Shown in pieces: positions 15,161-22,466 of a DNA stretch of 64,000 nucleotides (position 1 is the first letter of the stretch; each line of letters starts with the position of its first letter). Made by a program: the position numbers and the translations under genes. The notes under the pieces were generated by a model. That model saw nothing but the letters and a program-made list of their open reading frames with translations, was not told the origin of the DNA and did no database searches. Origin of the DNA: Candidatus Aenigmatarchaeota archaeon (GTDB taxonomy: Archaea > Aenigmatarchaeota > Aenigmatarchaeia > GW2011-AR5); contig JACPDL010000003.1 in NCBI GenBank assembly GCA_016184005.1, forward strand, positions 235,632 to 299,631. The letters are read 5' to 3'.

Positions 15161-15250
15161 GCTAAATTTTTCCCTAAAATATATTTAAAGCACTGGACTC
15201 GGACTTTCTAACAAAGCCACCGAAGGGAATTGAACCCTTAACCTGCAGTT

Positions 15251-15326
15251 GTTTTGACCCAAATAATATGCTTTCATAGTTCTTTGGGGTTTATCCAGAC
15301 CTTTCTTCCTAAGAAAGGGATGGATT
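15251..15326 (-). other. Canonical anticodon-loop intron of tRNA-Thr
   Basis: A 76-nt intron. Cutting after the second base of each 3-nt bulge (TA/A and AC/A) joins nucleotides 37 and 38 exactly. The intronic stem ATCC/GGGT supports the junction. Inside is a hairpin CCTTTCTT/AAGAAAGG that resembles the ends of the larger D-loop insertion, so the two may share an origin. Confidence 0.82.
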
Positions 15327-15343
15327 TACAAAACTGCTGCTCT

Positions 15344-15494
15344 GCCAGACTTCTCTGGCCTTTCTTCACCAGTTCTCTTACCAGCTCTTCACCGGTTCTA
15401 TTACCAGTACTTTACCAGTACTTTACCAGTTCTATTACCAGTACTTTTACCAGTTCTATCTGTTCTTTCCGCTGGCGCTTTCTTTCAAGAAAGG
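15344..15494 (-). other. D-loop insertion (possible second intron) of tRNA-Thr
   Basis: A 151-nt insertion whose ends slide over a repeated TGGC, so the exact borders are uncertain by four bases. Its ends pair (CCTTTCTT with AAGAAAGG). A small hairpin CCAGA/TCTGG lies at the 3' border. I could not draw a standard bulge-helix-bulge here, so removal by the splicing endonuclease is plausible but not shown. Confidence 0.65.
15368..15460. repeat. 11-12 bp tandem repeat inside the tRNA insertion
   Basis: Eight consecutive imperfect units on the plus strand, each beginning ACCAG or ACCGG (for example ACCAGTTCTATT and ACCAGTACTTT), of 11 or 12 bp. The repeat occupies most of the D-loop insertion and may vary in copy number between strains. 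Confidence 0.85.
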
Positions 15495-15572
15495 GCCATT
15501 TGAGCTACAGTGGCGTTATCAGTGATATCTGAATATAAATATTTATATTGGTTTCAAGAAATAGAAGCTATA

Positions 15573-16550: not shown

Positions 16551-16772
16551 CTATTTTCTTCTCGCCCAGTCTGAAGGGGCGTATTTACCGATCAGCTTTC
16601 TTAATATCTCAGCTGCTGGCAGGCCTCTATCGGTATCTGGAACTTTAACCCATACGTTGGCTACATAATCCCTTTCATTGAAGCCGGAAAGCTCCGGGTA
16701 TGCTTCCGGGTTCTCTTGATAAGCCTTCAAAAGCCTTCCGTCAAACGTCTCCTTCTTCCCGAACCATCCCAT
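16551..16772 (-). CDS. Hypothetical small protein
   Basis: A 73-residue protein beginning MGWFGKK, with a mixed charged sequence. The start has a GGTGAT site directly upstream on the minus strand. It lies just downstream of the small zinc ribbon at 16796 and is probably co-transcribed with it. Function unknown. Confidence 0.55.
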   Translation of the reverse strand: MGWFGKKETFDGRLLKAYQENPEAYPELSGFNERDYVANVWVKVPDTDRGLPAAEILRKLIGKYAPSDWARRK

Positions 16773-20201: not shown

Positions 20202-21650
20202 CTAACCCTTGACGTTGCCAAGCGGCGTCAGCGCAACGACTTTCTTCGAGATGCCAGCCTGGTGCACGGTCTCTATAACTTCATTGATGTCTTTGTAGGC
20301 AGCACCGGCTTCTTCTGCGACGCCTGCGAACGAGACAGTCTTCACATAAATGCCCCTTTTTTCCATGTCCCGTATAAGCGTGTCGCCCCGAAACTGGCGC
20401 TTGGCTGCAGTTCTTGACATTGTGCGGCCTGAACCGTGGCATGTAGAGCCGAACGTTTCAAGTTCTGCCTTTTTTGTGCCAACCATCAGGTATGACCCTG
20501 TTTCCATGCTGCCGCCAATGATTATAGGCTGCCCAGCATGCCGGTATTTGGCGGTTACTTCTTCCCTGCCGGGCCCGAATGCGCGCGTTGACCCTTTGCG
20601 GTGAACGAGGACTTTCTTTCTCTGGCCGTTGACTTCATGCTCCTCGATCTTTGCTGTGTTGTGCGAAACATCATATACCTGATGCATGCCCAGCTCTTCT
20701 GCGGGCCTTTTGAAAACCTTTGAGAACGCCTCACGAATGCGATGTAAAATTACCTGACGATTGGCAAAAGACATGTTTACGCCGCAGCACATGGCTTTGT
20801 AGTAGTCCTGCCCTTCCTTGCTCTGGAACGGTGCGCATGCAAGTTCAGGATCCCATATCTTCAGGCCGTATTTTGGCATGACGTCAAGGAATGTTTTCAG
20901 ATAATCAGTCCCGATCTGGTGGCCAAAGCCCCTCGAGCCGCAGTGAAACATGATAACTATCTGGTCTTTGCTGTGCACGCCGAAAAGTTTTGCAGTCTCT
21001 TCGTCAAATATCTGGCTTGCGTGCTGTATCTCCAGGTAATGATTTCCTGAGCCAAGCGTGCCTACCTGTGTTATGCCGCGCTTAAAGGCACGGTCGCTTA
21101 CTTTAGACGGGTCTGCGTCTTTCATGCAGCCGTATTCCTCCGTGTTTTCAAGATCTTCTTCCCATGCAAATCCGTTCTCAAGCGCCCATTTTGCGCCGGT
21201 GGCTGTCACGGCCTCGAACTCTCTTTTGTCCAGCTTTACGAATCCTGAGCTCCCAACGCCTGCCGGGACTGTCTTGAAAAGAATATCCACAAGCTCCTTG
21301 ATCTTGGGCCTGACTTCCTTCATTGTAAGATTTGTTGTAGCCATGCGCATCCCGCAGTTGATATCGAACCCGATACCTCCGGGAGAGATTATTCCATCTT
21401 GTAAATCAAACGCTGCAACACCGCCGATTGGGAAGCCGTAGCCCCAGTGTCCATCCGGCATGCAGAAGGCATGGTTTATTATGCCTGGCAGGCGGGCAAC
21501 ATTGGTAACCTGATTAAATACGCCGTCATCCATATCGCGTATGAGCTTTTCCGTCGCATAGATGCGCGCAGGGACAAGCATGCCTTCCTTGTATGTCTGC
21601 GGAAGTTCCCAGATTGTATCTGTTATTTTTTTCATTTCTTTTGGTGGCAT
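20202..21650 (-). CDS. rtcB: tRNA-splicing ligase RtcB
   Basis: A 482-residue RNA ligase with GGIGFDINCGMRM (metal-binding Cys99), HCGSRGFGHQIG, HNTAKIEEH and the CHGSGR segment with the guanylated histidine. RtcB joins 2',3'-cyclic phosphate and 5'-OH ends of tRNA halves using GTP and Mn2+. Its activator archease is 0.4 kb away at 22044. The ATG at 21650 is chosen because a TTTAAA box at 21679 gives leaderless spacing. It is a likely sealer of the split tRNA-Thr in this window. Confidence 0.93.
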   Translation of the reverse strand: MPPKEMKKITDTIWELPQTYKEGMLVPARIYATEKLIRDMDDGVFNQVTNVARLPGIINHAFCMPDGHWGYGFPIGGVAAFDLQDGIISPGGIGFDINCGMRMATTNLTMKEVRPKIKELVDILFKTVPAGVGSSGFVKLDKREFEAVTATGAKWALENGFAWEEDLENTEEYGCMKDADPSKVSDRAFKRGITQVGTLGSGNHYLEIQHASQIFDEETAKLFGVHSKDQIVIMFHCGSRGFGHQIGTDYLKTFLDVMPKYGLKIWDPELACAPFQSKEGQDYYKAMCCGVNMSFANRQVILHRIREAFSKVFKRPAEELGMHQVYDVSHNTAKIEEHEVNGQRKKVLVHRKGSTRAFGPGREEVTAKYRHAGQPIIIGGSMETGSYLMVGTKKAELETFGSTCHGSGRTMSRTAAKRQFRGDTLIRDMEKRGIYVKTVSFAGVAEEAGAAYKDINEVIETVHQAGISKKVVALTPLGNVKG

Positions 21651-21678
21651 AATAACCAAGTAAGTTTTTGGCAAGGGA

Positions 21679-21706: not shown

Positions 21707-22093
21707 ATGCAATCAGATTCGGGCGTCACTGTGTCCTATAAGCAATGTGATAATGGCGTGAAAGGAATGTTTGTATCAGGGCTTTTTTCATCTGTTGACG
21801 TAATTCCTTCTGACGGCAGCGTGGAACTTGAAGTCTCTTGCTGGGGAAACGATTCTCCATACGGCATGGGCGGCGAGGCTTACGCAATCTCAGAGGCCGG
21901 CATATTAAGAGGCGATTCAGAAGCCGGGTTTCCGCAAAGAGACCTGCACTATCTCCGCCTTGCGTTTGAGAGGCTGGGATCCATATCGCCGGAGGAGGAG
22001 CCTTACATATCGCTGAGAAACCGCGTCATTGAAGCGCTCAGGCCTATATGTCAACAACAACCCTGCAGAACCACGAGTCGCCTTTCTGCTTGA
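21707..22093 (+). CDS. Hypothetical protein, divergent from rtcB
   Basis: A 128-residue soluble protein with no recognised motif. The ATG at 21707 gives a leaderless mRNA from the shared TATA box. Its last 50 bases overlap the 3' end of the archease gene on the other strand, so one of the two C-termini may be less conserved. Its position between rtcB and archease is suggestive, but nothing in the sequence shows an RNA-related role. Confidence 0.55.
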   Translation: MQSDSGVTVSYKQCDNGVKGMFVSGLFSSVDVIPSDGSVELEVSCWGNDSPYGMGGEAYAISEAGILRGDSEAGFPQRDLHYLRLAFERLGSISPEEEPYISLRNRVIEALRPICQQQPCRTTSRLSA

Positions 22094-22466
22094 CTTCGAA
22101 CATGTGCAGCGTTATTGCCTTCACGTCTATCTTCTGCTCATGTTTTTTCTTCAGCTTCTCGCCGTACATCTCCGCTTCAAGATGGTATTTGCCGTCTTTT
22201 TCTGTTATCTTTATTTTGTACTTTGAGAAAAGCATCAGCTCCGCGTCTTTCATGAACACGAGTTCTTCAAGCCAGTTGTAGAAAAGCCTCTCTATGCTGC
22301 TTTCAACAAGCCGCACAGTCCTTTTCAGCCGGGGCTTTATGCCTTTTATGTCGACCATGGCATCTGTCAGAGCTTTGGCCCCTTCCTCGAAAAGCTGGTC
22401 AGGGCTTTTGGCTTCTGCCTCGAAAGCAAGGTCAGCAGTCGCAACATCTTCCAGATAGCGGTACAT
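22044..22466 (-). CDS. Archease, RtcB activator
   Basis: A 140-residue archease with the typical start YLEDVATADLAFEAEAKS, the central VESSIERLFYNWLEELVF helix and C-terminal VKAITLHMFEVKQKG. Archease helps RtcB guanylylate and lets it turn over many times. Its place next to rtcB is common. It overlaps the convergent hypothetical gene by 50 bp. Confidence 0.9.
   Translation of the reverse strand: MYRYLEDVATADLAFEAEAKSPDQLFEEGAKALTDAMVDIKGIKPRLKRTVRLVESSIERLFYNWLEELVFMKDAELMLFSKYKIKITEKDGKYHLEAEMYGEKLKKKHEQKIDVKAITLHMFEVKQKGDSWFCRVVVDI

Follow-up and report, generated by a model that had tools for sequence, protein, structure and literature searches.

A tRNA-Thr(UGU) gene of an Aenigmatarchaeota species with two introns that probably derive from one dispersed RNA element

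In a window of 64,000 nucleotides of a Candidatus Aenigmatarchaeota genome (G000), the whole stretch of DNA analysed here, we characterised a threonine tRNA gene and conclude, with a probability of about 0.78, that it is a working tRNA-Thr(UGU) gene whose transcript is spliced twice and whose two introns both come from one dispersed element, the copy in the D loop being degenerate and expanded into an array. The splicing endonuclease would cut the transcript at 37/38 and at 15/16 and RtcB would join the exons. Both introns would descend from one structured element of the lineage that repeatedly found its way into genes for structural RNAs; in the D loop this copy would have degenerated and its variable segment would have grown into a tandem array of 11-12-bp units, which would be free to vary because splicing removes it.

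The complete tRNA was read on the minus strand (15514..15215, 300 nt), and the sequence-only reading of a tRNA-Thr(UGU) with two insertions, one of them an anticodon-loop intron with a bulge-helix-bulge (BHB), was borne out. Removal of both introns leaves a 74-nt tRNA-Thr, in which ARAGORN recognised a tRNA-Thr(tgt), that is, a cloverleaf with a threonine anticodon, while for the unspliced gene in the window ARAGORN and Rfam gave no tRNA, as expected from the size of the inserts. From 5' to 3' the gene reads GCCACTG TA GCTC AA, 150 nt, TCTGGCA GAGC A GCAGT TTTGTA, 76 nt and exon 3 (A ACTGC AGGTT AAGGG TTCAATT CCCTT CGGTGGC T). Exon 1 (15500..15514, minus strand; identical in G001, a genome of the same genus) comprises the acceptor strand GCCACTG, UA, the 5' strand of the D stem GCTC (15505..15502) and AA; exon 2 (15327..15349, minus strand) comprises TCTGGCA, the 3' strand of the D stem GAGC and the anticodon stem and loop with the anticodon TGT at 15330..15328; exon 3 (15215..15250, minus strand) comprises A38, the 3' strand of the anticodon stem, the variable loop, the T arm, the 3' strand of the acceptor and U73. 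The acceptor stem is GCCACTG/CGGTGGC, the D stem GCTC/GAGC, the anticodon stem GCAGT/ACTGC with the loop TTTGTAA and the T arm AAGGG-TTCAATT-CCCTT. The 300-nt precursor has a fold z of -5.4. An antisense ORF (15254-15532) with a TTG start had no support and was dismissed.

The canonical 37/38 intron (15251..15326, minus strand, 76 nt) has a full hBHBh' with the 4-bp helix TTTG/CAAA, the 3-nt bulges TA^A and AC^A and the h' helix ATCC/GGGT; at the fixed sites, an equally good motif was obtained in 51 of 20,000 dinucleotide shuffles. The D-loop intron (15/16; 15350..15499, minus strand, 150 nt) has a relaxed BHB, in which GCTC (10-13) pairs with an intronic GAGA (15355..15352), the bulges are AA^A and AG^T and the h' helix is TGGCC(C)TTTCTT/AAGAAAGGCCA. 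Here three of the four central pairs are standard, five of the six h' pairs form and the bulges are present, a fit equalled in 55 of 20,000 dinucleotide shuffles at fixed sites. The insertion was previously given as 151 nt long, which holds in that its length comes to 150-151 nt according to where the splice point is placed, but its boundaries fit best at 15499..15350, after A15 and not after GGC; the latter splice point was rejected, as it would give an 8-nt D loop and no D-stem-anchored BHB. Splicing at 15/16 would produce the mature D loop AATCTGGCA, matching AACCTGGCA of the intron-less orthologs in two relatives (G004 and G005; 9-nt loop). Using a strict scan, we found the D-stem strand paired with an intronic GAGA, GAGC or GGGC in three more tRNAs, one in G000 (L193) and two in relatives (L159 and L051). 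In the predicted fold, a local hairpin of the D-loop intron competes with the long-range h' helix. Splicing of the tRNA-Thr at both sites, as predicted from the sequence, would join GCUCAA to UCUGGCAGAGC in the D loop and UUUGUA to AACUGC at 37/38.

All 74 exon bases are identical between the tRNA-Thr of G000 and its ortholog in G001, whereas the D-loop intron is 186 nt long in G001 (150 nt in G000) with a rearranged array and the 37/38 intron (L044) is 137 nt long (76 nt in G000) with an additional hairpin segment. Since the exons are identical and the introns strongly changed, this comparison is strong evidence that the tRNA-Thr gene is under selection and that its introns are free to vary. 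The exon identity is also the main support for the earlier proposal of a functional tRNA-Thr(UGU) with two introns, which stands with the D-loop splice point moved to 15/16. A further tRNA-Thr(UGU) gene, for which the sequence-only reading had proposed to look, was sought by the T-arm/acceptor end, and none was found in the genome (assembly 94% complete) with as many as 3 mismatches allowed in 26 nt; this locus is apparently the only tRNA-Thr(UGU) gene of the species.

The proximity of RtcB and archease genes was confirmed: the RtcB tRNA-splicing ligase (20202..21674, minus strand; PF01139, E 2e-173), the presumed exon joiner, and archease (22044..22466, minus strand; PF01951, E 1e-37), its presumed partner, lie about 4.7-7 kb away. 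Their nearness adds little, because both would act on every spliced tRNA. Among named organisms, Candidatus Aenigmatarchaeota stand closest, the best segment of the window RtcB being 99% identical to isolate RIFCSPHIGHO2_01_FULL_AR5_44_11. The RtcB of G001 (C38) and of many relatives carries a long in-frame insertion, probably an intein, giving open frames of 880-1020 aa; it is absent from the window RtcB. The splicing endonuclease EndA (PF01974) is encoded by one gene in G000 (202 aa) and by one each in seven of the eight relatives searched, and its closest solved relatives by sequence are 1a79 (archaeal, homotetramer kind), 5x89 (M. kandleri EndA) and 3iey (N. equitans catalytic subunit). 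In the seven family members whose residues were read (L278-L284, from G000, G001, G007, G004, G005, G006 and G014), the Tyr and His are kept, and the first Lys in the 1a79 motif HSVRKK corresponds to an Ala, with Arg or Lys as the next residue. The motif thus reads AHNIRAR or AHNIRAK as against AHSVRKK, with the Ala aligned to the catalytic Lys. An insertion, KKGPKS, lies between the catalytic Tyr and His, and the N. equitans subunit has part of it.

Comparison of the tRNAs within G000 revealed one motif, a hairpin element of about 50 nt, recurring in introns at differing positions. A covariance model built from five copies of the element (R1) matched 38 copies in G000 (a 0.92-Mb genome) and 29 in G001 at E <= 0.01, and up to about 20 in each of several other genomes; at E <= 1e-4 it matched 30 of 156 genomes from the phylum, among them 15 of the 19 in the home family. 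At the gathering score, no Rfam family covered the element in the window or in the elements scanned, where only host genes (tRNA, 5S, SRP, rRNA) were matched, and its identity as a known Rfam RNA was rejected. Nor was the element described in the openly accessible published literature searched for tRNA introns in DPANN or for the motif. Neither Rfam nor the papers searched contain the dispersed element, the covariation of its three strands or its two opposite placements in the genome.

In intron orientation, the element consists of a 5-bp lower stem, a TC/TC internal loop, CC and a pyrimidine arm, a short loop, a purine arm and GG, the returning lower-stem strand, about 4 nt, CCC and a third strand. 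Pairing in the lower stem is Watson-Crick to about 97-98% over a large variety of sequences, among them ACAAA/TTTGT, GCAAA/TTTGC, ATACA/TGTAT, GTAAA/TTTAC, TCCAA/TTGGA, ACCAA/TTGGT and ATCCA/TGGAT. Among 120 unique copies, 91% have a third strand that matches the parallel complement of the pyrimidine arm exactly (e.g. TTTCTT with AAAGAA, TTTTCTT with AAAAGAA, TTCTTT with AAGAAA and TTTTTCTTT with AAAAAGAAA), a relation that R1 did not encode, compared with 43% (maximum 52%) in 500 shuffles. Because the copies are related to one another, these shuffle figures overstate independence. An ordinary reverse complement was rejected, being exact in 23% of copies. For a triple helix, arm and third strand have to mirror each other in this manner, which suggests that the element may form one. 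In leader orientation, that is, in reverse, the internal loop becomes a tandem GA/GA and the third strand UUCUUUGGG would run parallel to the purine arm AAGAAAGGG, with putative U.A-U and C+.G-C triples. Some copies (at L004, L193, L197 and L044) have small nested GCATC-hairpin-TGCAGA hairpins between the lower stem and CCC, with the third strand kept beyond. Outside the phylum, a Micrarchaeota contig (L087, minus strand, position 16628) holds a lone hairpin with a parallel-complement third strand (TTTTTCTT/AAAAAGAA, preceded by CCC), which may be due to chance. A second recurrent family (AAGAGGAGAAACTACGTTTCTCC... / AGGAGAGAAGGTTGATA...GTTCTCGACTTATT) was observed in tRNA introns and spacers of L001, L004, L177 and L190.

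The 37/38 intron is a strong member of the element (R1 E 7.5e-10 over the window) and holds a full copy (15279..15327, minus strand) with the lower stem ATCCA/TGGAT, the stem CCTTTCTT/AAGAAAGG, CCC and the third strand AAAGAAC. The CCTTTCTT/AAGAAAGG stems, already noticed as common to both insertions, are real and proved to be the key to the locus, as they point to a genome-wide element carried by both introns. The tandem units of the D-loop insertion were also found again: 15362-15457 on the minus strand hold 8.4 copies of a unit of about 12 bp (about 8 units of 11-12 bp, AGAACTGGTAAA-like), which are rearranged in G001 and pair among themselves in the predicted fold. Next to this array lies a probable degenerate element copy (15462..15498, minus strand) with the lower stem TGGC/GCCA of only 4 bp, the hairpin CTTTCTT-GA-AAGAAAG, which is present in the minimum-energy fold, and the third strand AAAGAAC; CCC is absent. 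Lower stem, hairpin and third strand occurred jointly at the right spacing in none of 20,000 shuffles, in a test defined post hoc. R1 scored only the hairpin core of this copy (16 bits, E 0.12 over the window), so its membership relies on that after-the-fact feature test. The tandem units start after the third strand and several repeat AGAAC; the D-loop intron is thus probably a degenerate copy whose variable segment expanded into the array.

In favour of this joint reading are the spliced product, a tRNA-Thr(tgt) unchanged in G001 between altered introns, the rarity of the BHB fits, the architecture shared with three tRNAs, the R1 match and the element features of the two introns, copies of the element in introns of many other tRNAs and in 5S and SRP RNA, the presence of RtcB, archease and EndA and the precedent of the M. 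kandleri tRNA-Glu (PMC3695527); against it are the three of four central pairs at the D loop, the competition between hairpin and h' helix, the weak score with the whole of R1 and the Ala of EndA. If the D-loop insert instead stayed unspliced, the gene would be silent or in decay, or its RNA would retain the insert, and the relaxed BHB and a repeat array of a length unusual in a tRNA intron would agree with this. We consider it very unlikely, given the exons identical at 74 of 74 bases in two genomes despite diverged introns, the search that found no other UGU gene with the same 3' end and insert ends that fit a D-stem-anchored BHB like those of three other tRNAs. It is less improbable, though still unlikely, that the two introns are unrelated and share their stems by chance or through a preference of the endonuclease or the fold for CCTTTCTT/AAGAAAGG. 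The missing CCC, the 4-bp lower stem and the poor whole-R1 score of the D-loop copy could be read in this way, but not easily the joint occurrence of stem, lower stem and third strand at the right spacing (0/20,000 shuffles), nor the approximately 38 copies in the genome, several of which lie in other D-loop introns.

The placement of the element was analysed for 131 copies from about 25 genomes. Directly before start codons, in leader orientation, we found 56 of these copies; within 60 nt of the hairpin foot, the leader strand had 58 ATG starts of long ORFs, 50 of them at -2..0 nt, compared with only 8 scattered starts on the opposite strand. Copies within recognisable tRNAs were on the tRNA strand by 21 to 0. 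Sense-oriented copies occupied tRNA D, anticodon and T loops as well as 5S and SRP RNA. Further placements were tRNA 3' ends, positions after stop codons, a 5S rRNA gene and an SRP RNA gene, and 34 copies were left without assignment by the automatic classifier, several of which are tRNAs when read. The 5S rRNA gene of G000 (L176 1459-1649) is interrupted by the element and spans 191 nt as against the 120-nt model, and the SRP RNA genes of G000 (L178 1468-1825) and G001 (L201 84-439), whose matches are under the Rfam gathering score yet at E 1e-15 or better, are each interrupted by a copy; these copies are apparently introns. Most of the tRNA loci read in G000 are interrupted by one, two or three introns, which lie at canonical as well as unusual sites, and many of these genes are therefore missed by standard tRNA finders.

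Among 50 proteins tested behind leader copies, 14 belong to ribosomal protein families (S3, S3Ae twice, S6e twice, S10, S12 twice, S17e, S19, L19e twice, L7Ae/L30e and L31e), an enrichment that is indicative against a background of about 6.5% (our own estimate; some of the 50 are orthologs). Other leader genes encode EF1-beta (twice), the RNA polymerase subunits Rpb1, Rpb4 and Rpb5, a TFIIS-type factor, RFC, Pop5, RNase PH, GatB, a class II aminoacyl-tRNA synthetase and Sua5. For 30 of the 56 leader copies, a same-strand upstream gene stops no more than 160 nt away, in most cases at a distance of 75-130 nt from the start codon; many copies thus fill an intercistronic gap. In a few genomes, the leaders seemed to offer a riboswitch-like alternative pairing and another hairpin enclosing the third strand, but overall the complementarity did not clearly exceed shuffles and both ideas were dropped. 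The asymmetry of wobble pairs for the selected strand (4:1 vs 1:6, Fisher p = 0.07) is only suggestive.

Two lines of evidence suggest that the element may be mobile. A tRNA intron (L193) and a reversed leader (L197) of G000 hold derivatives that resemble each other closely and share their nested hairpins, and three copies (L253, L177 and L232) are flanked by 16-21-nt direct duplications, found at 0 of 1,310 control positions; at L232 and L177, they restore one end (5' or 3') of a tRNA. Together with the turnover of the element between G000 and G001, these findings would also suit purely selfish DNA or RNA surviving only where it is harmless, at spliceable RNA sites and at the edges of start and stop codons, with no function for the start-codon copies. 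This is quite possible, although we lean against it: leader copies recur at the same genes (S3, S3Ae, S6e, S12, L19e and EF1-beta) across genera or families, the element at the RFC start is kept in G000 and G001 (L172 and L202) although lower stem, hairpin and third strand differ together, the three-strand covariation is maintained and neutral intergenic DNA shows few copies. The start-codon copies may therefore take part in regulation, as this pattern of sequence conservation suggests, and mobility and a function at gene starts are compatible, as both can be true. The strictly opposite orientation of the tRNA copies (21 to 0) and the reversed start-codon copies, together with the largely informational genes downstream of the leaders, might instead indicate a trans-acting role of the tRNA introns, which after excision would target mRNA leaders as antisense RNAs. 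We give this little credence, since in G003 and G014 the leader subfamilies (GTAAA/TTTAC with a TG loop; ACGGA-type) are not those of the intron copies in the respective genome, so that complementarity is not maintained and an antisense role is not favoured. The chance is likewise slim that both activities combine in an undescribed, lineage-wide regulatory RNA, in which the pyrimidine strand UUCUUUGGG would dock parallel to the purine arm AAGAAAGGG as a U.A-U / C+.G-C triple helix in leaders of ribosomal, polymerase and replication genes and the introns spliced from tRNA, 5S and SRP RNA would serve as antisense RNAs; if true, it would link the maturation of stable RNAs to the production of the translation machinery.

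D-loop, multiple and transposed tRNA introns are already known, so the tRNA-Thr gene itself is of a known kind. Transposition of tRNA introns has been described in Thermoproteales (Fujishima et al. 2010, summarised in PMC4090602); compared with the introns as that summary presents them, the element here, in a different phylum, is a covarying hairpin with a parallel-complement third strand that also resides in 5S and SRP RNA genes and, as its reverse complement, at start codons. The tRNA-Glu of M. kandleri likewise has two introns, in the D loop and at 37/38, and there the pair is documented by RNA-seq (PMC3695527), whereas splicing here is deduced from sequence; unlike the tRNA-Thr, it was reported without tandem repeats or a dispersed element. 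Non-canonical and multiple tRNA introns are also known from Crenarchaeota (Pyrobaculum and Thermofilum; PMC3218864), which share the intron-rich tRNA set, several introns per gene and relaxed BHB motifs, but those described here are long and contain nested hairpins and, in tRNA-Thr, a repeat array. Furthermore, the 5' UTR of HVO_1309 carries a BHB intron (PMC7714728) and is comparable as an RNA element of the splicing-endonuclease type in an mRNA leader; in contrast to that single spliced case, the leaders here bear the reverse complement of the intron element, and no BHB was identified in element-bearing leaders.

The element offers a natural record of archaeal intron gain: it occurs at D, anticodon and T loops of tRNAs, in the genes for 5S and SRP RNA and, in reverse, where genes start, and its sites can be compared one by one between close genomes. 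From the three-strand covariation, a specific triple-helix fold can be predicted and tested directly. Moreover, standard finders overlook many tRNA genes of the group, which matters for annotation, and the start-codon copies may represent a means of controlling genes of translation and transcription in a DPANN phylum about which little has been learned so far.
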